DNA from: Bacteroidota bacterium
GTDB lineage: Bacteria; Bacteroidota; Bacteroidia; Chitinophagales; Chitinophagaceae
Direction of reading: 5' to 3'
NCBI GenBank assembly: GCA_030706735.1
Contig: JAUZNZ010000008.1
Location: forward strand, 62,001 to 126,000
Length of the DNA: 64,000 bases
The position numbers and the translations under genes were made by a program. The notes below the pieces were generated by a model, which saw only the letters and a program-made list of their open reading frames with translations, had not been told where the DNA came from and did no database searches. How positions within the stretch are numbered: the stretch's first letter is position 1; every line of letters starts with the position of its first letter. This document shows positions 49,626-63,649 of the stretch, one piece after another.

Positions 49626-51938
49626 ATGCTGCGGATCTTTCTCCTGATATTATGCTGTTTCCCCGTATGCCTGCAGGCTCAGACCTTTACCGTCAGCGGC
49701 ACCATCCGCGATAAAAGGACGGGCGAGGTGCTGATCGGCGCCAGCGCCATCCTGCTTGAGATGCCGCGGTCAGGCATGACCAGCAATTCTTATGGGTTCT
49801 ATTCCCTGAGCGCCCGGCCTGGCAACTATACCCTGGTGGTCAGCTTCACGGGATATCGCGCAGATACCCTGAAGATCGTTCTCGACCGGGACATACGCCT
49901 TCCCGTCGGATTGATCGCCGGCGGTACGGAGCTGCAGGAGGTCGTGATTAGTTCGATCAGGCGCAACGATAACGTGACCAGGCCCCTGATGGGCGTTCAG
50001 AAACTCTCCACCAGCGATATCAGGAACGTGCCGGTCATCTTTGGTGAAAAAGATGTACTGAAGACGATACAGCTTTTGCCGGGCATCCAGGCTGCCGGGG
50101 ATGGCAATAGCGGTTTTTTCGTCCGCGGAGGCGGCGCGGACCAGAACCTGATCCTGCTTGACGAAGCCACCGTATATAACCCGTCCCACCTGCTTGGCTT
50201 CTTTTCCACATTTAACTCCGATGCGATCAAGGATATTACCGTGTATAAAGGCGGAATGCCGGCTGAATACGGCGGACGGCTGTCTTCCGTGGTGGACATC
50301 AAAATGAATGACGGCAATAATAAAGAAGATCATTTCGGCGGCGGCATCGGCCTGATCTCCACCAGGCTGAATGCGGAAGGCCCGATCGTCAAGGACAAAG
50401 GGTCTTTTTCCATTAGCGGGAGACGAACCTATGCGGATCTTTTCCTGCGGCTTTCTCCCGATTCAAACATCAACAGCAATTCCCTTTATTTCTATGACCT
50501 GAATGTCAAAGCGAATTATAAACTGAATGAGCGCAACCGTTTCTACCTGTCCGGTTATTTCGGCAGAGATGCCCTGTCATTCGGCGGCGCCTTCGGGATC
50601 GATTACGGGAACGCGACGGGCACGGCAAGGTGGAATCACGTTTTCAACAGCCGCCTTTTTTCCAATACCTCTTTCATATATAGCGACTACAGCTACAAGA
50701 TAAAGATCAATTCGAACAACAATGACATCGACATTACGTCCGATATCCGCGACCTCGATTTGAAGGAGGATCTGCAGTACTACGTCAATACCGGCAATAA
50801 GATCGATTTCGGCTTCAATGCGATCCGTCACGCCATCTCCCCGGGGGTAATTACCGCTTCAGCTACGTCCAGCTTCAATTCCCTCCGGATCCAGGATAAA
50901 TATAGTCTCGAGAACGCAGCGTATATCTCTCACGAATGGTCGCCCGGCAAGGTTCATCTCAATTATGGGCTGCGACTTTCGGCCTTCTATGTTCTTGGTC
51001 CCGGGAATTTCTATACTTACGATGCAGCGGGCAATGCCGTCGACACGGCCCATTATCGCTCAGGCCAGCTGGTAACCAGCTATTTTGATCCGGAACCCCG
51101 CTTTTCCATGAGCTATACCTTGAATGATGAGGCCTCATTTAAGTGGGCGTACGACCGGAACGTCCAGGTTCTCCACCTTTTGTCCAATTCAACCTCCGCA
51201 AATCCTACGGACCTCTGGCTGCCGAGCAGTAATATCGTAAGACCCGGCATAGCCGACCAGGTCTCCATCGGCTATTACCGGAATTTTCATGATAACCAAT
51301 ATGAATTCTCGGCGGAGACCTACTATAAGGCCATGAAGAACCAGATTGACTATAAGAACGGCGCACAGCTGATCGCCAATGAAAACGTCGAATCCCAGCT
51401 CCTTTTCGGAAAAGGGCGTGCCTATGGTCTCGAACTTTTCATTAAGAAGAAAGCAGGCAAGCTCACCGGGTGGATCAGCTATACGCTCTCCCGTACCGAA
51501 TTGCAGATCGATGGGGTCAACGAAGGGAAATGGTATCCCGCCAGGCAGGACCGAACGCACGATATTTCGATCGTCGGCATTTATCAGGCAAATAAGAAAT
51601 GGACCCTTTCGGCTACCTGGGTCTATTATACCGGTAACGCAGTGACCTTTCCCAGCGGCAAATACCGGGTGAATGATCAGACCGCTTTTTATTATACGGA
51701 ACGGAATGCCTATCGTATGCCGGCCTATCACCGCATGGACGTCGCAGCCACTTTGCTGGGCAAGACGAAACGCAGATTCGGGAGCAGCTGGACCTTTTCG
51801 GTATACAATCTCTATGGAAGGGAAAATGCCTACAGCATCGTTTTCCAGGACGACCCGGCAGATTCGTCGAAAACCCAGGCTATCCAATATGCACTATTCC
51901 GATTTGTGCCCTCTGTAACCTACAATTTTAAATTTTGA
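49626..51938 (+). CDS. TonB-dependent receptor with carboxypeptidase-regulatory-like domain
   Basis: A 770-residue outer-membrane receptor. After the signal peptide (ending LQAQ), residues 22-105 form the CarboxypepD_reg-like domain (TVSGTIRDKRTGEVLIGASA and SYGFYSLSARPG). The plug domain follows (LLPGIQAAGDGNSGFFVRGGGADQN and VYKGGMPAEYGGRLSSVVDIK) and then a 22-strand barrel. It is shorter than SusC-type receptors and its partner is a DUF4249 lipoprotein rather than SusD, so the ligand need not be a polysaccharide. The gene starts 26 bp after the HAD gene. Confidence 0.92.
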   Translation: MLRIFLLILCCFPVCLQAQTFTVSGTIRDKRTGEVLIGASAILLEMPRSGMTSNSYGFYSLSARPGNYTLVVSFTGYRADTLKIVLDRDIRLPVGLIAGGTELQEVVISSIRRNDNVTRPLMGVQKLSTSDIRNVPVIFGEKDVLKTIQLLPGIQAAGDGNSGFFVRGGGADQNLILLDEATVYNPSHLLGFFSTFNSDAIKDITVYKGGMPAEYGGRLSSVVDIKMNDGNNKEDHFGGGIGLISTRLNAEGPIVKDKGSFSISGRRTYADLFLRLSPDSNINSNSLYFYDLNVKANYKLNERNRFYLSGYFGRDALSFGGAFGIDYGNATGTARWNHVFNSRLFSNTSFIYSDYSYKIKINSNNNDIDITSDIRDLDLKEDLQYYVNTGNKIDFGFNAIRHAISPGVITASATSSFNSLRIQDKYSLENAAYISHEWSPGKVHLNYGLRLSAFYVLGPGNFYTYDAAGNAVDTAHYRSGQLVTSYFDPEPRFSMSYTLNDEASFKWAYDRNVQVLHLLSNSTSANPTDLWLPSSNIVRPGIADQVSIGYYRNFHDNQYEFSAETYYKAMKNQIDYKNGAQLIANENVESQLLFGKGRAYGLELFIKKKAGKLTGWISYTLSRTELQIDGVNEGKWYPARQDRTHDISIVGIYQANKKWTLSATWVYYTGNAVTFPSGKYRVNDQTAFYYTERNAYRMPAYHRMDVAATLLGKTKRRFGSSWTFSVYNLYGRENAYSIVFQDDPADSSKTQAIQYALFRFVPSVTYNFKF

Positions 51939-54187: not shown

Positions 54188-54502
54188 AATCTAGGATTTC
54201 AAGTTAAAATTACAGGAAAAAGCATAAACAGTATTCCGAACATCTTGCCAAATTCTCGCCGCCCGCTGGCAGGCCCTTGAAGGCATGGAATACCAATTGT
54301 TTGGGTAAATTATTCCCCAAACCGGGAAATACTGTCCCTGAGATAGGGCATTATATTTAACCGGGCTGCCTTATTTTTGGAGTTCTGTAGGAGTTTGGGT
54401 TCGTTTAAACAGGCTCCCATTTTAATGGCTTTAAAATTGTACAATTGTTGATCGATAATGTTTTTGTGAGGTCTAAAATGTGGACAAGTGGAAACAAGCT
54501 TT
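54188..54502. other. Divergent intergenic region with an inverted repeat
   Basis: 315 bp between two response-regulator genes transcribed away from each other; no convincing gene. It is AT-rich near the receiver-only gene. A perfect 7-bp inverted repeat GTTTGGG/CCCAAAC with a 10-bp loop lies at 54299-54305 and 54316-54322, roughly mid-region, and could be an operator or a hairpin. A sequence resembling a sigma-54 -24/-12 element near 54269 has wrong spacing. Both promoters must lie here. Confidence 0.5.
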
Positions 54503-54907
54503 ATGACAGCCATTTCAAAAGTATTAATTGTTGACGATGAGCTGGATATTTGTTATTTGCTGAGCGGCATGCTGAAACAGTTGAACTTTCTGGCTGGTTT
54601 TGTCAATACCCTGTCCGACGCCGTGGTTGCTTTGCAGAACGATACTCCTGACGTGCTCTTCCTGGATAATCACCTGCCCGATGGGTTCGGTCTCGATTTC
54701 ATCCCCTATGTGAAAAAGAACTTCCCGGAGACCAAAGTGGTCATGATCACCGCGCACGACAGCGCGGCAGAAAGAAATACGGCTTACAAGGGCGGAGTGG
54801 ACCTGTTCATCGCCAAGCCGCTAAACCGGAAAGTGATCGTAGACGCGATCGAAAAGCTCTCCAGTTCCGGCTCTGCCGGGAAACCCTTAGTTACCCAACC
54901 GGCCTGA
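54503..54907 (+). CDS. Single-domain response regulator (receiver only)
   Basis: 134 residues from the ATG at 54503, essentially one CheY-like receiver: Asp11-Asp12 acidic pocket (LIVDDELD), phosphoacceptor Asp55 (VLFLDNHLPDG), Thr in VVMITAHDS and Lys in FIAKPLNRK. No output domain, only a short Ser/Gly-rich tail. It may pass phosphate on or bind a partner; the divergent NtrC-type regulator is the obvious candidate by position only. Confidence 0.9.
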   Translation: MTAISKVLIVDDELDICYLLSGMLKQLNFLAGFVNTLSDAVVALQNDTPDVLFLDNHLPDGFGLDFIPYVKKNFPETKVVMITAHDSAAERNTAYKGGVDLFIAKPLNRKVIVDAIEKLSSSGSAGKPLVTQPA

Positions 54908-55020
54908 CCCCTCCGCTGCCCGATCCCCCTTCGCTCCCTGACCCCTCTCCGCTGCTTGAATTCTCCCCATCCCTCGTATAGTACCAATGGAAGAATTGGA
55001 TCATGGTTCCGCCTTTCATA

Positions 55021-55494
55021 TTAATCCAGATATCTCCTCAGTTTCCAGGCATTGGTTTCGTGATCTTCCATAAGGCCCGTCAGGAAGTCTGCCGTTCCCG
55101 CATCCTCGAATTTGTCGGAGCATTCGTCGATGTCCTTTCTCAGCTTGACAATGATGCTTTCATGGTCGCTGAGCAGCTCCTTGATCATTTCTTTCCGTGT
55201 AGGGTACTTGCCGGGTGCCTCTTTTAGATGGGTCTGCTGCAGGAACTCGTGCATGGTGCCGATGGGATGGCCACCCAGTTTGCTGATCCGTTCCGCGATC
55301 TCGTCGATCGCCTCCGCTAACTCCGTATACTGCTTTTCAAACAGGAGATGCAGCTCCATAAAACTCTCTCCCGCGACATTCCAATGGAATTTCCTTGTTT
55401 TTGTGTACAGGACGGCCTCGTCCGCCAAACCCGACGTCAGCAAGGTCATTACGCCCTTTAAATTTTTTTCTGAAATACCTAAATGGGGTTGCAT
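55021..55494 (-). CDS. dps: Dps family DNA-binding/ferritin-like protein
   Basis: 157 residues from the ATG at 55494; an in-frame extension upstream is not needed. Four-helix ferritin-like subunit with the intersubunit ferroxidase residues in KFHWNVAGESFMELHLLFE and AEAIDEIAERI (His, Asp, Glu). The 12-mer stores iron, consumes hydrogen peroxide and protects DNA in stationary phase. The lysine-rich N-terminal tail is short. It is divergent from the YtxH operon, and both fit a general-stress setting. Confidence 0.94.
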   Translation of the reverse strand: MQPHLGISEKNLKGVMTLLTSGLADEAVLYTKTRKFHWNVAGESFMELHLLFEKQYTELAEAIDEIAERISKLGGHPIGTMHEFLQQTHLKEAPGKYPTRKEMIKELLSDHESIIVKLRKDIDECSDKFEDAGTADFLTGLMEDHETNAWKLRRYLD

Positions 55495-55740
55495 ATTGAA
55501 TTTGTTTTCCTTCAATAACCATAAATGATACCACAATCCGTCAGGCGTTCTTTTGATCCGCCCTTCCTCAACGTGTAGAAAAAATTGCTCATTTTTTTGG
55601 TTGGGAGGGCATCATGCTGAACGTTCCTTTGTCTGGCTTCCGCAATATTCAACGGGATTTGAAAAAAAATGAGCGTGATCGAGAATTTGGCAGGGATTTT
55701 TAACTATCAACACGACGGAATGTCGTAAAAATGTAAAACT

Positions 55741-55965
55741 ATGAGCAACTCAAAATTATTAATGGGATTTTTAGTCGGCGCGGCAGTAGGCGGCGCTCTG
55801 GGTATTTTATTGGCCCCGGATAAGGGCTCGGAGACACGCCGGAAGATCATGGAGAAAGGCGCCGACCTGGGCGATTCCATAAAGGGTAAGTTCAATGATG
55901 TCGTGGACGGTGTGAAAGAGAATTTTGGACGGGCCAAAGGCGAGGCCAAGAACGCTATGTCATGA
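55741..55965 (+). CDS. YtxH domain-containing small membrane protein
   Basis: 74 residues: an N-terminal glycine-rich transmembrane helix (LLMGFLVGAAVGGALGILLA, residues 6-25) followed by APDKGSETRRKI and an amphipathic helix. This is the YtxH/gas-vesicle-like stress protein layout. First gene of a three-gene operon: its stop overlaps the next start (ATGA). Function in the cell envelope under stress is inferred from the family. Confidence 0.88.
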   Translation: MSNSKLLMGFLVGAAVGGALGILLAPDKGSETRRKIMEKGADLGDSIKGKFNDVVDGVKENFGRAKGEAKNAMS

Positions 55966-56351
55966 ACGAGCTCCGGCAACCCATCAACAAAATGAATATG
56001 GAAGAGCAAAGGAGCGATTTGGATATGCTGTTCTCGGACGCGGGTGATTTCATAGAGACTAGGGCCGCTCTCTGGAAATTGAAGGCCGTGGACTCATTGG
56101 CGGATTCAGTGTCCGACCTGGCGTCCGGGATCGGGATCATTTGTATCATCTCGGCGTTTGTTTTGATCGTGAGTATCGGATTTGCTCTTTTGATCGGCGA
56201 ATGGCTTGGGAAAAATTTTTATGGCTTTTTTATCATCGGGGGTTTGTATGGGATTGCCGGGCTTGTTTGTTATGCTTGTCGCAACCGCTGGTTCAAGGAA
56301 CCTGTCGGAGACCTGCTTGTTAGGAAGCTATTAAAGCATCATAAGAAATGA
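55962..56351 (+). CDS. Holin-X/phage-holin-like membrane protein
   Basis: 129 residues with an N-terminal soluble helix (ETRAALWKLKAVDSLADSVSDLAS) and two transmembrane segments (GIIICIISAFVLIVSIGFALL-like around 55-77 and FFIIGGLYGIAGLVCYA). This matches the small family named after actinobacterial holin X. In Bacteroidota it is typically paired with YtxH proteins outside prophages, so a lysis role is unlikely. Overlaps the genes on both sides by 4 bp. Confidence 0.75.
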   Translation: MNELRQPINKMNMEEQRSDLDMLFSDAGDFIETRAALWKLKAVDSLADSVSDLASGIGIICIISAFVLIVSIGFALLIGEWLGKNFYGFFIIGGLYGIAGLVCYACRNRWFKEPVGDLLVRKLLKHHKK

Positions 56352-56605
56352 CATCGACATCGATCGCCAACATGGAAGAGCTGAAGAACGCGATCCGCGA
56401 ACTGGAAGATCAGAATTATGTGAACGAACAGTTCATGCGCCGTCGCGTAGAGCATATCGTCCAGAACCTGAAACCGCTCAATATCGTCAAAAACCTGGTG
56501 CATGACGTGATCAAGGGTTCCGAAACAAGGAACAATCTCCTGCGCATGGCGGCAGGCCTCGCCACCAGTTTCGTACTGAAGAAATTTTTCAGGCGCCGCG
56601 CATGA
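56348..56605 (+). CDS. Small protein of the YtxH/holin-like operon, unknown
   Basis: 85 residues, mostly helical. The N-terminal half is charged (MEELKNAIRELEDQNYVNEQ), and the C-terminal half has KNLVHDVIKGSETRNNLLRM, then a short hydrophobic stretch (AAGLATSFVLKKFF) and a basic end RRRA. It may attach to the membrane through the last helix. The ATGA overlap with the holin-like gene supports joint expression. No family name is certain. Confidence 0.7.
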   Translation: MTSTSIANMEELKNAIRELEDQNYVNEQFMRRRVEHIVQNLKPLNIVKNLVHDVIKGSETRNNLLRMAAGLATSFVLKKFFRRRA

Positions 56606-56619
56606 CCCTTCCTTCGCTC

Positions 56620-56864
56620 TTATTTCTGCTTTTTTTCGGATTGCTTCATATTGAGATAGTCAGTGGGGGTCATCCCGAATTGTTTCAAAAAATTCCTTCC
56701 AAAATTCGTTTGAGAGCCGTAACCCACCATTTCGGCAACCTCATAGATCTTATAGTGACTTTGTAAGAGGAGCTCAGTTGCCCTTTTGAGTCTCGTGATA
56801 TTGATGAGCTCATTGGGCGTAAGGTCGGTCTGCTCATGTTTACCAATTGGGCCAGCTTTTCAAC
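56620..56864 (-). pseudogene. Remnant of an AraC-type regulator (C-terminal HTH only)
   Basis: Reading the minus strand from about 56819 to the stop at 56620 gives the second half of an AraC DNA-binding domain: TPNELINITRLKRATELLL, YKIYEVAEMVGYGSQTNF, RNFLKQFGMTPTDYL. Further upstream (56822-56864) the first HTH helices VEKLAQLVNMSRPTL appear in another frame, so the gene is frameshifted as well as truncated. Everything upstream (sensor or ligand domain and promoter) is missing; homology stops at about 56864, where GH51 sequence begins on the other strand. In intact relatives this HTH ends PUL-type hybrid regulators. Not expected to make a functional protein. Confidence 0.85.
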
Positions 56865-58018
56865 AGACCTTCGGACTTGGGTTCTTCGAATATTTCCAGT
56901 TGGCGGAAGACATAGGTGCCGAACCGCTGCCCATCCTCAATTGTGGTATGGCCTGCCAGTTCAATTCTGCTGAAGTAGTGCCGCTGGAAGATATCGGACC
57001 CTATGTGCAGGATGCCCTGGACCTGGTAGAATTCGCTAACGGGGATACAACCACCGCCTGGGGCCGGATCCGTGCCAAAATGGGCCATCTCAACCCGTTC
57101 CACTTAAAAATGATGGGCATTGGCAACGAGAACTGGGGACCGCAATATGTTGCCCGTCTGGAGGTCTTTACCAGGGCTATCAAAAGCAGGTATCCCGATA
57201 TTAAATTAGTGAATAGTTCCGGCACGGATCCCAATGGCAGTCGCTTTGATTACCTGAATGGCGAGTTGCGTCGCATGAACGCCGATATCATCGACGAACA
57301 CTATTATCGTACGCCTGACTGGTTTTTTAGCAACGCCAGACGGTACGATCATTACCCCCGCAATGGCACAAAAGTATTCTGCGGCGAGTACGCAGCGCAA
57401 AGCGTTAAGGCGGTTAGCGTGGACAATAAGAATACCTGGCTTACGGCCTTATCTGAAGCCGCTTTCATGACCGGCCTCGAGCGTAACGCGGATGTCGTAT
57501 GTATGGCGTCTTATGCGCCCCTGTTCGCGCACGTCGACGCATGGCAATGGACTCCGGACCTGATCTGGGTCAATAACCTGCAATCTTTTGGTACGCCGGA
57601 CTATTATGTTCAGAAACTATACTCCCTGAACAGGGGCACACGGGTCGTTCCTATTACCCTGAATAATGACGCGCTGGCGGGCCAGGATAGTTTGTATGCC
57701 TCGGCCTGTATAGACGACGCCACAAATGAGTTGATCATCAAAATGGTAAATGCGTCCGCCATCGGGCAATCGGAGAAGATCCTGCTGAACGGAGCGAGAA
57801 AAATAGCACCGCAAGGGCAGTTCACGGTATTAAAATGTGACGACCTGCATTCCGTAAATTCCTTTGATGATCCGAAAAAGATTGCTCCGGTGGAATCCCT
57901 GGTGCCTGTCAAAGGCGGCAGGATCAGCATGACCGCCGCGCCCTATTCATTCAGCATTTTCCGGGTGAAAATGAACGCGCCTGCCGGCGGCGGTCTTATC
58001 ATAGAAAATCGAAAATGA
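56804..58018 (+). pseudogene. 5'-truncated GH51 alpha-L-arabinofuranosidase
   Basis: GH51 homology begins at about 56864 with QTFGLGFFEYFQLAEDIGAEP; only 26 or fewer non-homologous codons, antisense to the AraC remnant, precede it in the open frame. The acid/base Glu (MMGIGNENWG) and nucleophile Glu (VFCGEYAAQS) are present, and the C-terminal beta domain is complete. The signal peptide and the first strands of the barrel, several hundred residues in full-length enzymes, are missing. It should therefore be neither exported nor correctly folded. The reading frame has no internal stop, suggesting a recent event. The stop overlaps the GH43 start. Confidence 0.82.
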
Positions 58019-58995
58019 AGATTTCTCTCCTCGTCGTCCTCGCATTCCTTGTTGGGAATATCAGTGCCCAGCCGATCCGAACCAACATATCGGTGCATGA
58101 CCCGGTCATGATCCGCCAGGATAGCGTGTATTATATATTCTGCACCGGCTTTGGGATAAATGTTTGGTCCTCCCGCGATTTGACGGAATGGAAGAGGGAA
58201 CCTCCGGTCTTTTCCAGGCCTCCGCAATGGGCGGCGAACGCGGTTCCGGGTTTCAAAGGATCTGTCTGGGCCCCGGATATCAGTTATCACCATGGCAGAT
58301 TCTACCTGTATTATGCCATATCCGCTTTTGGAAAGAATACGTCCTGTATCGGGCTGGCCCTGAACAAGACCCTCGATAACCGCTCCCCGGATTATAAATG
58401 GGAAGATGTCGGCATGGTGATCCAGTCCGTTCCCGGCAGGGACATGTGGAATGCGATCGACCCCAACCTGGCTATGGATGAAACAGGAACGCCCTGGCTG
58501 GCATTCGGCTCTTTCTGGGACGGGATCAAACTGGTAAGGCTGAACGATCGGCTCGACTCGGTGGCCCGACCGGAACAGTGGTATACCATCGCCAGGAGGC
58601 CCAGGGACCCTGCGCTCGCGGATTCCCTGGCGGGAAATGGGGCGATTGAGGCTCCATTTATCTTTCGGAAGAATGGATGGTATTATCTCTTCGTGTCCTT
58701 CGACTATTGTTGCCGGGGCGAAAAGAGCACCTATAAAATGATGGTGGGCAGGTCGGAGAAGATTCAGGGCCCCTATCTCGACCGGGCAGGAACGCCGATG
58801 CTCCAGGGTGGCGGTTCACTGGTAATGGAAGGAGATAAGAATTGGTATGGGGTGGGGCATAATGCCGTAGTGAGCGATCCCGGGGGCGATTTGCTGATCT
58901 TCCATGGGTATGACGCCCATGATAAAGGCAGGTCTAAGCTGCGGATCGGGAGACTGACCTGGAATAATGAATGGCCGGCAGTCGCCACATATTGA
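58015..58995 (+). CDS. Secreted GH43 arabinan endo-1,5-alpha-L-arabinosidase type enzyme
   Basis: A 326-residue five-bladed-propeller glycosidase with a signal peptide (VVLAFLVGNISAQ). The catalytic triad of GH43 is visible: base Asp29 (VHDPVMI), pKa-modulating Asp149 (NAIDPNL) and acid Glu212 (GAIEAPFIF). WAPDISYHHGRFYLYY and FGSFWDGIKL are typical of the arabinanase subgroup. The start overlaps the GH51 stop (ATGA), so translation was probably coupled to GH51. With the shared promoter lost, its expression is doubtful unless a new promoter has formed. Confidence 0.9.
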   Translation: MKISLLVVLAFLVGNISAQPIRTNISVHDPVMIRQDSVYYIFCTGFGINVWSSRDLTEWKREPPVFSRPPQWAANAVPGFKGSVWAPDISYHHGRFYLYYAISAFGKNTSCIGLALNKTLDNRSPDYKWEDVGMVIQSVPGRDMWNAIDPNLAMDETGTPWLAFGSFWDGIKLVRLNDRLDSVARPEQWYTIARRPRDPALADSLAGNGAIEAPFIFRKNGWYYLFVSFDYCCRGEKSTYKMMVGRSEKIQGPYLDRAGTPMLQGGGSLVMEGDKNWYGVGHNAVVSDPGGDLLIFHGYDAHDKGRSKLRIGRLTWNNEWPAVATY

Positions 58996-59016
58996 TATTT
59001 CTACGGAGCTTTGTTC

Positions 59017-59841
59017 ATGAGCCCGCAATCCTTTCAAATTTTTACCGGCAACCTGCCGAAGCAGGAAAAGCCCATGCCCATCCTGTTCGTTGGACACGGT
59101 TCGCCGATGAATGGTATCGAAGACAATGAGTTCAGCCTCCGGTGGCAACAAATGGCAAAAGAAATTCCCAGGCCGCGCGCCGTCCTTGTCGTGTCCGCTC
59201 ACTGGTTCACCAGAGGCACCCATATCACGGCCATGGACCATCCGCCGACCATTCACGACTTCGGAGGATTCCCCCAGGCCCTTTTCGACGTGCAATACCC
59301 TGCGCCCGGCGACCCGCAACTCGCCCTGGACACGGCTTCGCTCGTGAGGTCGACGCCCGTCGGACTCGCACACGACTGGGGGCTTGATCATGGCGCCTGG
59401 GCCATCGTCCGCCATATGTACCCCCATGCAGACATCCCGGTTCTTCAGCTGAGCATCGACTTTACCAGGAATGGCCGCCAACACTACGACCTGGCAAAAG
59501 AGCTGTCGGACCTGCGTAAAAAAGGAGTACTGATCATCGGCAGCGGAAATATGGTACATAATTTGCGGCTCATTTCGTGGGAGTTAATAAAAGGTGGAGG
59601 CTACGATTGGGCGATCGCCATGAATGAAAAGCTCAAAGACCTGATAATGGATGGTGATCACGCGGCCCTGGCTAACTTCGAAAGCCTGGGGAAAGAGGCA
59701 AAACTAGCGATACCTACTCCCGAACATTATCTGCCGCTGCTGTACATTTTGGCCCTACAGGAAAAGAACGAGACACCCTTATTTTTCAATGATAAAGCCG
59801 TCGCAGGGTCACTTACAATGACCTCGGTTAAGATCGGTTAA
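59017..59841 (+). CDS. ygiD: 4,5-DOPA-extradiol-dioxygenase-like protein (YgiD/LigB family)
   Basis: 274 residues from the ATG at 59017. LigB-type extradiol dioxygenase fold: PILFVGHGSPMN (His ligand), VSAHWFTRGTHIT (His ligand), GLDHGAWAIVRHMYP and IIGSGNMVHNLR with the catalytic His. YgiD from Escherichia coli opens the ring of L-DOPA and related catechols; the natural substrate in this organism is unknown. A terminator lies about 90 bp downstream. Confidence 0.92.
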   Translation: MSPQSFQIFTGNLPKQEKPMPILFVGHGSPMNGIEDNEFSLRWQQMAKEIPRPRAVLVVSAHWFTRGTHITAMDHPPTIHDFGGFPQALFDVQYPAPGDPQLALDTASLVRSTPVGLAHDWGLDHGAWAIVRHMYPHADIPVLQLSIDFTRNGRQHYDLAKELSDLRKKGVLIIGSGNMVHNLRLISWELIKGGGYDWAIAMNEKLKDLIMDGDHAALANFESLGKEAKLAIPTPEHYLPLLYILALQEKNETPLFFNDKAVAGSLTMTSVKIG

Positions 59842-59928
59842 AATTATCTTCCTGTGATCAACCCGCTAGAATGCTCATTTCGGATGAGATAGAAATGGAT
59901 TGGCGTCATGCCCGTCACATCAAGCATC

Positions 59929-59975
59929 GGTAATGTACGATTACTTACTAACCCACCGTACATTACCTTTTTTTT
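59929..59975 (+). terminator. Intrinsic terminator after ygiD
   Basis: A perfect 11-bp inverted repeat (GGTAATGTACG at 59929-59939 and CGTACATTACC at 59957-59967, loop 17 bp) is followed directly by eight T (59968-59975) on the plus strand. The right arm covers the stop codon and last codons of the convergent minus-strand gene that ends at 59963. There is no T run on the minus-strand side, so it should work for the plus strand only. Confidence 0.8.
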
Positions 59976-61369
59976 GCTTCAAACAAGGTCCAAGGACTGG
60001 CCTTCATGTCATGCAGGTACTCTGCCTGCCATTGAAACTCCGGATGCAGCTGAAAGAAAGGGGCCGCAAGGAAATCTTCCCCGCTGGGATTGCCCATATG
60101 GGCCCAGAAGGTAAGATCCTTCGCCATCGCCGCGGTGGTAACCTTCCCTTGCACTGTTCCTCCCGGATAGAAGGGCGGCCAGCCCCATTCGGGACAACCC
60201 TTGGGATCGGTATCGACCCTGCCGGCAATCACGCAACGGCTCGATTCCTTCGCTTTGCTGAGCTCACTGTAACTGTCGCTCTCGATCGTTCGGGCCGCCG
60301 TGGCGTCGATCCTTCCCTTATATTGTTCGGCTAGCTCCTGCCAGCGGCGCTTGCGGCTGTTGGGAGAGTTGCTGGCATCCGTGGAGTCGAAGGTCGTCTC
60401 CTCCTTCATTAACTTCGGATCGCTCGGAAAATTGGAGCCGGTATAGATCCCGTCCTTCGTTCGCCACACGGGATGATTCTTCAGCCCCAGTTCCAGCCGC
60501 GCGATCTCATTGGTCTTGATGTCGCCGACCAGCCAGTCATTGGCATATCCGCCATTATTGCCCGTGGTCATGATCCGGATAAAGTCGTCAATGCTGTTCG
60601 CATACTGGGCAGCCTTGCGGGCCCGCACAAATTCCGGTATGCCCGACTCATCGAATCCCTTGAATTGAGTGATGGTGGTCTCTGTGATCAGGATGCCGCC
60701 GCCCGTTATGACAAAGTCATCCCCGCTGTGAATGAAGCCGGGCATCATGTCCATGAACAACCTGTTCCCGCTAACCGGAACAATGTCGGCGATCACATTC
60801 CACCGTTCTCCGACAATATAGTCCGTCCAGCTGTTATGTCCCATCGCGATCTTACCATCGGAAGTATACCTGCCCGTGGCTATAAAGGCGCTGCAATTTC
60901 CGGGCGCCTTATTGTCCGCAGAGCCCGGTTTGGCCCGATCCGCCAGCCAGGGCACATAGTATTGCCCCAATTCGATATTGCCGTTCAGCACGACGATGTC
61001 ATAGACGTCATAGTCATATCCTTTAGCCTTCAATCCTTCCACGATCCCGCTCATCTCTTCCCGGTATTCCTGATCGACCTTGCTCCAGAATATCCTTTTC
61101 ACGGCCCCCCGATAAAAGGACCAATCCTTGCCGGAACTGTGTGCCAGCCAAAGCTTCATCGTCCGGATCAGGTCGTCGATCTCCCGTGCCAGCAAATAGC
61201 CATGCTGGTAACCGATGTCCTTCGGCTTACCCTCCAGGTGAATATAGATCCAACCGGCCTTGTCTTGCCGGGATGCCTTCGACAAACGAGGGTCGTTCGG
61301 CTGGGCAGGGGCCACGGTGGCAGAGCCCGTCAGCCATGCCATGATCAGTAAGAGGAAAGGTATTCGCAT
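59963..61369 (-). CDS. C45/phospholipase-B-like autoproteolytic hydrolase
   Basis: 468 residues from the ATG at 61369, which starts a signal peptide ending VAPAQ. Ntn-hydrolase features: GNCSAFIATG with Cys159 as the likely self-cleavage site and N-terminal nucleophile, followed by KIAMGHNSWTDYIVGERWNV, and later NNGGYANDWLVGDIKTNEIARLELG in separate parts. This arrangement is that of the phospholipase B-like and acyl-CoA:6-APA acyltransferase (C45) group, which cleaves or transfers acyl amide or ester bonds. Mature enzyme periplasmic. The preceding gene on this strand, an Omp85-like barrel, ends 8 bp upstream. Confidence 0.8.
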   Translation of the reverse strand: MRIPFLLLIMAWLTGSATVAPAQPNDPRLSKASRQDKAGWIYIHLEGKPKDIGYQHGYLLAREIDDLIRTMKLWLAHSSGKDWSFYRGAVKRIFWSKVDQEYREEMSGIVEGLKAKGYDYDVYDIVVLNGNIELGQYYVPWLADRAKPGSADNKAPGNCSAFIATGRYTSDGKIAMGHNSWTDYIVGERWNVIADIVPVSGNRLFMDMMPGFIHSGDDFVITGGGILITETTITQFKGFDESGIPEFVRARKAAQYANSIDDFIRIMTTGNNGGYANDWLVGDIKTNEIARLELGLKNHPVWRTKDGIYTGSNFPSDPKLMKEETTFDSTDASNSPNSRKRRWQELAEQYKGRIDATAARTIESDSYSELSKAKESSRCVIAGRVDTDPKGCPEWGWPPFYPGGTVQGKVTTAAMAKDLTFWAHMGNPSGEDFLAAPFFQLHPEFQWQAEYLHDMKASPWTLFEAKKR

Positions 61370-61377
61370 ATCCGAAG

Positions 61378-62613
61378 TTAAAAAACTTCGCCCAGGTTGA
61401 CGAAAAATCCGCCGGATCCCTTCTGCCCCCAGCCATAATCGATGCAAAGGTTGGTGCGGGAGAACTTGTTCAGCGTGATCCTGAACCCGCCCCCATAACC
61501 GGGAACGACGTATTCGAACCGGCCCGAGGCAGGCTCGGTGAAAGACTGGGCATTGGCAAAAACGACCGCTCCGAGTAACCCGTTCGACGTGATGCCGAAA
61601 CGGTATTCCGATTCAAAATACAGCATATTCTTACTCCGGAACCGCCCCTGGATATATCCCCTGGCCGTATTGCTGTAAGCGTCCCAGCCCGTACTGGGCA
61701 GCAACAGGTAAGGCGGATCCCCGCCCCCGGTGGTGAACCAGTCATAGCTCCATAAGGCCAGCACATTATGCGTGGTACCCGGAAACCGGATGTAGCGGCG
61801 CAGGTCGAATAAGAGGGATTGCCAGTTATTGTCGCTCCCCATGAACGTAAAATTGGGCCGGTAGGTAATGCTCGCGTAACCCCCATTCTCCGGATTGATC
61901 TGGTTCCTCCTCGAGTCGTACAGCAAATGCGCCGAGATGCCGGACGCGGTTTCCGTTTTCGTCAGGCCATAGGTCTCAAAGTCCGTGGCCTTCCCCATCG
62001 GGGGATCGATCTCACGGATGTTCCAGAAGTAGTCCAGGTCATATCCCAGCCCCGCATACAGATCTTTCCCGATCGTCTTCAGGATGGCCTGATGCAGGCG
62101 CACATAGGAATAATCGATGCTATAGCCCGTATCCGCAGACGTATTCCCTCCCAGACCATAGGTAAAGGAGGGGTATTTAAGGTACCGCCAGTCGGTAACG
62201 ATATTGTACTTATTGTCCTTGGTCCATAGGTCGGCCTGGATGGGAAATAGGATCTGCTCGTATTGGGAATACGTGATGCTGGTCAGCACGCTGGACAGGT
62301 TCGCATTGGGGCGATCGCTCGTGTAAAAGGCGAAGTTGGAACTGAGTACCCCTGCAAAACCGGTTTGCAGGGTATAGCCCACCACGGGCAACGCGGAAAT
62401 ATGCAGCTTGCCGGTCTTCCGCTGGCTGGTGTCCATCCTCACCTCCGAGGTCTTTTTAAGCCATTTTCTACCGAGATCCACCAGATCGGTTTGGATATGG
62501 GCCGAATCCTGGGCGCGAACGGGCAGTGCATGGCACAGCAGGGCCAGTAGGGTAATGGATATGCTTAAAGGGCGGCTCAAAAAGAGTTTTTTGATGAAAC
62601 CATTGGTTCGCAC
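61378..62613 (-). CDS. BamA/TamA-like outer-membrane barrel protein
   Basis: A 411-residue protein with a signal peptide (ISITLLALLCHALPVRAQ) and a start that appears to be GTG; no ATG fits before the signal peptide. The mature part is one barrel of the Omp85 type without POTRA domains: LPVVGYTLQTGFAG near the start, YDSRRNQINPENGGYASITYRPNF (split over two strands), ARGYIQGRFRSKNML as the RGF/Y-containing loop motif, and a terminal GEVF with aromatic end. Bacteroidota carry many such single-barrel paralogues of unknown cargo. Likely co-transcribed with the downstream C45 hydrolase, 8 bp away. Confidence 0.85.
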   Translation of the reverse strand: MRTNGFIKKLFLSRPLSISITLLALLCHALPVRAQDSAHIQTDLVDLGRKWLKKTSEVRMDTSQRKTGKLHISALPVVGYTLQTGFAGVLSSNFAFYTSDRPNANLSSVLTSITYSQYEQILFPIQADLWTKDNKYNIVTDWRYLKYPSFTYGLGGNTSADTGYSIDYSYVRLHQAILKTIGKDLYAGLGYDLDYFWNIREIDPPMGKATDFETYGLTKTETASGISAHLLYDSRRNQINPENGGYASITYRPNFTFMGSDNNWQSLLFDLRRYIRFPGTTHNVLALWSYDWFTTGGGDPPYLLLPSTGWDAYSNTARGYIQGRFRSKNMLYFESEYRFGITSNGLLGAVVFANAQSFTEPASGRFEYVVPGYGGGFRITLNKFSRTNLCIDYGWGQKGSGGFFVNLGEVF

Positions 62614-62689
62614 ATGATTAAAACGAAAACAAATGATTAAAATTACCTATGGACGACATGAATTGATCCCGCTGACGGGGAGGCATAGT

Positions 62690-63649
62690 TTACGGTATTT
62701 TTACGAATTCGTTGAGTTTATGCAGCTCCAGGATAGTAGTCCGTCCATCATCGCTTTCCCTGTACATCGGAATGAACTTCCCGTTGAACTTTATTTCCCG
62801 GTACGTATAAGAGGTCCTCTGCTGTACCAGATTGGAAAAAACGTCGTCGAAACCCCGGATCAGAACATAGATCTCCACATCGGAGGCCTTCATATCTTCA
62901 TGGGTAAAACCCTGGAACGGACTGTTCTCGTCGATGGGATGCACCACGGTCCAATTCATCGGAAGGCTCTCCACCCTGGTTCGTTCCAGCTTAAGGTCAT
63001 AGTATCTGTAGATGGCTTCTTCGTTCTCATGCACCTGCAAGCCCACATTGACGCGGATCTCGACGTCGGTCAGCGTATGCTTGTCCTTATACGAGGCGAA
63101 TCGGAACATGAGGCCCATGCCGTTCTTATAAGGGCTGACCAGCGCATGTTCACTGAAGACCAGGTAGGCGCGCGGCCTGGAGAAACGCCCGTACATCAGG
63201 CCCGTGGCGAGGGCAAAGGACAGCAGTCCGCTCATCGCCTCGATACTGGCCGCAAAATTGGCCCAGTCGCCTATCGGGTTAACCCGGCCATAACCCACCG
63301 TAGTGAAGGTTTCCGTACTGAAGAAGTACGCTTCCTTGAATTTCCCCCAAGGCGTAGAGGCGATAACTCCCTGTAACTGACCGACGCCGATCCACAAATA
63401 GAGGAAGGCATAGGCAAGGTTGATGGTGAAATAGAAGATCCCCAGGACGGAGATGAACTTCCATAAAGGCATGGTCAGCATGTTATGGTAGACGCTGAAC
63501 CGGTTCATGAAGGAGACCCCTTCCTTGCGAAGGTTGAAGCTGCCATCCCGGTTTATGAAACGGCCTCCATAGCTGCTGGCATTATTGCCAAAGCCCGTAT
63601 CATTATTGACCTTCAGTACAGGGTTGATCTTCTTCGTGTGCAATGCCAT
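62690..63649 (-). CDS. Inward-rectifier-type potassium channel (KirBac)
   Basis: A 319-residue KirBac-like channel: cytoplasmic slide helix, outer helix FISVLGIFYFTINLAYAFLYL, pore with the selectivity filter TTVGYG (116-121), inner helix MSGLLSFALATGLMYGRFSRP, then a C-terminal immunoglobulin-like gating domain with YLVFSEHALVSPY and LMFRFA. It forms tetramers in the inner membrane and passes potassium. It is transcribed in the same direction as the barrel gene with a 76-bp gap. Ligand control (PIP2 in animal homologues) is not known for bacteria. Confidence 0.95.
   Translation of the reverse strand: MALHTKKINPVLKVNNDTGFGNNASSYGGRFINRDGSFNLRKEGVSFMNRFSVYHNMLTMPLWKFISVLGIFYFTINLAYAFLYLWIGVGQLQGVIASTPWGKFKEAYFFSTETFTTVGYGRVNPIGDWANFAASIEAMSGLLSFALATGLMYGRFSRPRAYLVFSEHALVSPYKNGMGLMFRFASYKDKHTLTDVEIRVNVGLQVHENEEAIYRYYDLKLERTRVESLPMNWTVVHPIDENSPFQGFTHEDMKASDVEIYVLIRGFDDVFSNLVQQRTSYTYREIKFNGKFIPMYRESDDGRTTILELHKLNEFVKIP

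Follow-up and report, generated by a model that had tools for sequence, protein, structure and literature searches.

The window, by which we mean the whole 64,000-nucleotide stretch of DNA analyzed here (positions 62001-126000 of contig C79 of its own genome), contains two truncated genes joined to one another. The two meet at positions 56864-56865, where a regulator gene's 3' end, in antisense, abuts a GH51 arabinofuranosidase gene that is entered in mid-barrel, and the GH51 frame in turn runs into an intact GH43 gene.

The regulator piece (56620..56865, minus strand) is a response-regulator 3' stub holding part of an AraC-type HTH only; the receiver domain and the front of the protein are absent. 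Its stop codon lies at 56620-56622, and 56623-56823 encode the second part of HTH_18 (profile positions 23-79 of 80), with the 67-aa piece matching at 1.9e-15. The stub is 84% identical over 61 aa to its orthologue in the relative G023. From about 56824 to 56865 the regulator homology continues in a different frame, and 31 bases are absent inside the HTH, a gap seen both against seven aligned sequences from six genomes and pairwise against G023. This frameshifting deletion in the HTH coding region (minus strand) lies at approximately 56820..56832, where its placement is ambiguous. The original prediction, that the HTH end could be read up to about 56864, thus holds for the homology, which reaches 56865, but not for a single reading frame.

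The same prediction had described an AraC-type regulator, which is right as to the HTH; by its orthologue, the protein is a response regulator with a receiver and an HTH. Since the G021 orthologue has both a receiver domain and HTH_18, of which the window keeps only part of the HTH, we regard the regulator as a response regulator separate from its kinase. Kinase and receiver-HTH occupy separate ORFs, as judged from kinase domains and frames in G023 and receiver-HTH domains in G021. HTH matches at 71-84% identity lie in open frames of 252-345 aa. At 57-68% identity, the matches of several genomes include frames of 1321-1368 aa, so hybrid relatives appear to exist one step further out. Near the G002 locus (L144, contig C15), two copies of the regulator HTH lie about 5.5 kb apart (contig coordinates 296381-296578 and 301854-302051), the first lying in a frame of 113 aa with a stop.

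On the other side of the junction lies the 3' half of a GH51 alpha-L-arabinofuranosidase gene (56864..58018, plus strand), an open frame that lacks a start of its own. The ORF as listed (56786-58018, plus strand) is open throughout and begins with a TTG at 56786, within the antisense regulator sequence. Pfam finds ASD1_dom from profile position 49 of 239, followed by a complete Alpha-L-AF_C; the intact G023 orthologue has 723 aa and covers ASD1 profile positions 1-239, and the window matches its residues 349-721. These two lines of evidence agree with the earlier claim that GH51 homology starts in mid-barrel at the junction. Aligned to MgGH51 (PDB 6zps), the window fragment corresponds to residues 266-625 (1.2e-50); residues 5-265 have no counterpart in the fragment but do have one in the intact G023 protein, which aligns from residue 5. 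A functional GH51 would be expected to have a complete barrel and C-terminal domain; here the C-terminal domain is whole and the barrel is incomplete. The GNEN and GEY motifs, which we take to be the catalytic Glu motifs of GH51, are both present, so any loss of function would stem from the absent front half. From their sequences, the regulator and GH51 pieces are predicted to be non-functional remnants. Matches to the GH51 fragment occur in 27 of 58 genomes searched (its own included), many of them distant GH51s. The closest relative for this stretch is G023, at 76% identity, and G004 has a 59-residue GH51 piece at a contig end that is 86% identical to the window.

As had also been noted, the GH51 frame has no internal stops and overlaps the GH43 gene, stop and start sharing 58015-58018. 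The GH43 gene (58015..58995, plus strand) contains the full catalytic profile (PF04616, positions 8-288 of 288), and its G023 orthologue likewise stands directly after GH51. It is changed at 0 of 68 invariant positions and at 3 of 96 positions conserved at 90%, a rate reached or exceeded by 13 of 40 sequences, the window included. For this set, 82 loci were screened; thresholds of 48% identity and 85% cover left 40 relatives, and one sequence was dropped as too alike.

Upstream of the stub are a YtxH-like gene (PF12732; 55741-55965) and two small genes (55962-56351 and 56348-56605), all on the plus strand and thus co-directional with the GH51 remnant. Successive genes of this trio (55741..56605) share 4 bases, with 14 bases between the stop of the third and that of the regulator stub. 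They occur at the matching site in G023, G009, G013, G021, G004, G030, G032, G002 and G007, the third being only 29% identical in G030. The right flank spans 59011..63649 and consists of a LigB-type dioxygenase gene (59011-59841, plus strand) and three minus-strand genes (59963-61447, 61378-62613 and 62690-63649). In relatives, some or all of these three bound the site on the right.

An intact version of this region is found in G023, where a response regulator and a sensor kinase on the minus strand are followed on the plus strand by SusC, SusD, GH51, GH43, GH51 and GH43. The kinase contains Reg_prop, Y_Y_Y, HisKA and HATPase domains. The whole G023 locus sits between the same left neighbors and the 61378/62690 genes as in the window; its regulator adjoins the orthologue of the 56348 gene and its GH43 directly follows GH51, both as in the window. 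Beyond GH43 the contents differ: the places of the dioxygenase and the 59963 gene are occupied in G023 by a kinase and a LuxR-type regulator (named by eye). SusC/SusD pairs are present in the loci of G023, G009, G002, G007, G021, G011 and G004. Between window positions 50000 and 64000 we found no SusC/SusD match, so that the glycosidases lack the neighboring pair by which a PUL is recognized.

Comparison with G023 at the DNA level places the junction sharply. On the regulator side, identity is 83% over 56836-56865 and 15% in the next 40 bases; on the GH51 side, it is 82.5% over 56864-56903 and 25% in the 40 bases preceding. These breaks bear out the predicted junction coordinate of 56864. Judged from G023, the two sides have just two bases in common, 56864-56865, and the junction mapped onto G023 spans 12,908 bases. 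The proposal of one deletion that fused two remnants lacking their 5' ends is therefore right in kind, as flank synteny and identity breaks support, but not in scale: it had the deletion take only the two 5' ends and the promoter, whereas most of a PUL is gone, some 12.9 kb on G023.

We consider it very likely that the window holds the scar of an arabinan-type PUL, about 13 kb of which was lost by recent deletion, with arabinan as the presumed substrate from the GH51/GH43 content only. The ancestor would have been arranged as in G023, with the left flank, the response regulator (minus strand), a propeller sensor kinase (minus strand), a divergent promoter and SusC, then SusD, glycosidases, GH51, GH43 and the right flank. 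This ancestral state is modeled on other species, among which the order and content of the locus vary. A single illegitimate joining with about two common bases would have removed the roughly 13 kb from the interior of the regulator HTH to the interior of the GH51 barrel. A separate 31-base deletion, perhaps by slippage between short near-repeats, would have frameshifted the regulator stub; it may have preceded the large deletion and so silenced the locus first, or may have followed it.

The lost genes were sought in the remainder of the genome (5.05 Mb in 100 contigs, rated 99.98% complete). The GH51 front half has no close copy there, the best match being a 34% paralogue on contig C51. For the kinase, the best match by E-value is 33% identical, compared with 56-71% between G023 and five other genomes; for SusD, the best is 34%, compared with 45-60% between G023 and six other genomes. 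An 11.7-kb G023 DNA query recovered the stub (75%) and eight matches of 50-413 bases at 65-86%. No SusC copy was found with this query, the sole search made for that gene and a weak test, the SusC proteins of relatives being 44-58% identical to that of G023. Apart from the stub, the matches are a GH51 gene on contig C45 (72% over 333 bases, 55% as protein), perhaps related to the lost first GH51, and short scraps. An arabinose isomerase is still present in the genome, and C51 carries a GH43-GH43-GH51 run next to an ORF of 1393 aa with a 30% match to the kinase, so the use of arabinose itself is not necessarily gone.

These searches bear on an assembly artefact, in which the real genome has the full locus and the assembler skipped it. 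The number of contigs in the assembly leaves room for such an error, and G021, with reduced and fuller versions of the locus on two contigs, shows that data of this kind may contain mixed populations or misassemblies. At the window junction, however, the two common bases offer no repeat to collapse, no other contig of a nearly complete genome has a close match to the kinase, SusD or GH51 front half, and the stub bears a second lesion, the 31-base deletion. We therefore judge an artefact highly improbable.

We give almost no credence to a small deletion, in which an adjacent, divergent regulator and GH51 gene lost only their 5' ends. The strands of the two stubs do fit a divergent pair, as the original prediction had it, with a shared promoter between them. 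Yet the two genes lie 12-15 kb apart in each of the four relatives that have both on one contig (G023, G009, G002 and G007), and the pair that is divergent is kinase/SusC. A rearrangement that left the remainder of the locus elsewhere in the genome seems scarcely conceivable, for although the place of the locus does vary, G002 and G007 having it on a contig other than that of this site, the kinase, SusD, GH51-front and 11.7-kb DNA queries (SusC by DNA alone) returned only distant relatives from the window's own genome.

The reading as a deleted PUL can also be set against the content of this site across the genus. The search covered 33 genomes, the window's own included, with one genome per species; the site, or the part of it held on a contig, was examined in 21 of the 32 others, and both flanks lie on one contig in eight. 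Two of these eight (G023 and G009) have a regulated locus at the site and two (G013 and G021) have reduced versions that keep GH51. The other four (G002, G007, G030 and G032) have no PUL gene there, which counts against a deletion from an ancestral PUL. Left uncounted, where a contig ended early or a marker was missing, were G031, G016, G029, G018, G012, G028, G024, G026, G014, G006, G008 and G011.

The contents of the site thus vary across the genus. In G009, the locus is in another order, with GH43 before GH51 and a LuxR-type pair on the other side, and no match to the first GH51 was found in it. G013 retains only GH51, beside a 151-aa regulator with a receiver domain alone; this is a LuxR-type response regulator cut short (L148, contig C1, contig coordinates 951172-951627), which suggests further reduction of the locus. 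The G021 site holds GH51 and a broken GH43 piece, and a second G021 contig has a fuller locus that ends inside GH43. The piece is interrupted by an internal gap and is flanked by a LuxR-type regulator and GH51 (L149, contig C166, contig coordinates 12162-12375); it may record an independent loss at this site in a different genome. G004, for which one flank is seen, has SusC, SusD, GH43 and GH51 and no close match to the kinase or regulator. An open frame of 393 codons and a frame of 165 codons replace these two (L152, contig C25, contig coordinates 11385-13828) and resemble, by eye, a FecR-type protein and a SusC front end; the G004 locus may be under a different control system.

At conserved residues, both stubs are unchanged. 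At the 133 positions that 83 other GH51s conserve at 95%, the GH51 fragment shows 0 departures, where the median of all 84 sequences is 0.75%, and, like most of the 84, it shows 0 at 78 invariant positions. In the regulator piece, none of the 32 positions that do not vary among six relatives is altered. The GH51 set began as 88 loci plus the window (89), of which five were dropped as at least 95% alike, giving 84; it omits L063 and L081 (same contigs as G002 and G009), L009, L010, L013 and L014 (cut short or with in-frame stops) and L031 (41% identical). For the regulator, 84 loci were screened and six passed 50% identity and 90% cover. With zero departures in both stubs and an open GH51 frame, the loss looks recent, as had been predicted. 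From zero changes in 133 codons, a rough hand estimate suggests a neutral divergence under about 1% per site if the GH51 fragment has been changing freely ever since its truncation. Many intact GH51s show zero departures as well, and a fragment still under selection would do the same, so the figure dates the loss only if the fragment is free to change.

In G023, GH43 is the last in a run of genes beginning at SusC and spaced by 5-111 bases, so its native promoter probably stood before SusC and is now gone from the window. Kinase and SusC diverge in G023 across 122 bases, and the promoter in this interval is most likely the one that was lost. The prediction that GH43 might be left without a promoter is supported as regards the native one, GH43 itself being intact, and the gene is probably no longer induced by substrate.

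Scanning 56607-58014 (plus strand) with TTTG / TANNTTTG, which we take to be a Bacteroidota-type promoter consensus, gave no match at up to one mismatch, with 0.32 expected from 200 single-base shuffles, and six matches at two mismatches, with 4.5 expected. The scan says little, since it found nothing at up to one mismatch upstream of the YtxH gene and a single one-mismatch match, on one strand, in the G023 kinase/SusC gap. Sigma-70-type and terminator scans over 54400-59100 were near background (5 versus 4.9 and 7 versus 5.1, respectively). A weak terminator-like site (56664-56677, plus strand, 5 pairs) lies between the YtxH group and the GH51 stub, and no stable hairpin was found at the 14-base gap between the YtxH-group and regulator-stub stops. 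In G023, a strong 12-pair terminator-like hairpin lies between the convergent 56348-gene orthologue and regulator (L140, 8185-8211); in this comparison with one relative, it is absent at the same place in the window. From the gene order, read-through from the co-directional YtxH group into GH43 is possible. That GH43 has been rewired, expressed by such read-through as a constitutive or stress-linked enzyme, strikes us as rather doubtful; were it so, the cell would take arabinan products freed by others, not sense or import the polymer.

As a biological event, this is a new instance of a known process, a clear but ordinary gene loss, in which the loss of a PUL is caught before visible decay. 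Subject to confirmation, the site could serve for studying the piecemeal loss of glycan-use loci and whether a last remaining gene gains a new promoter.

Among the nearest known systems are the loci of G009 and G023, which have the same flanking genes as the window and orthologues of its regulator, GH51 and GH43 but, unlike the window, keep the kinase, SusC, SusD and further glycosidases. Another is the arabinan PUL of Bacteroides thetaiotaomicron, outlined as BT0348-BT0369 (PMC8002723). As described there, it too combines homologues of SusC and SusD with arabinan enzymes of families GH43 and GH51, and it is switched on by a sensor-regulator; it differs in its hybrid two-component sensor, BT0366, and its two SusC/SusD pairs (PMC8002723). 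In the relatives studied here, the kinase and the receiver-AraC regulator are instead two adjacent ORFs, and of such a system the window retains only the end of the regulator, half of a GH51 gene and GH43.
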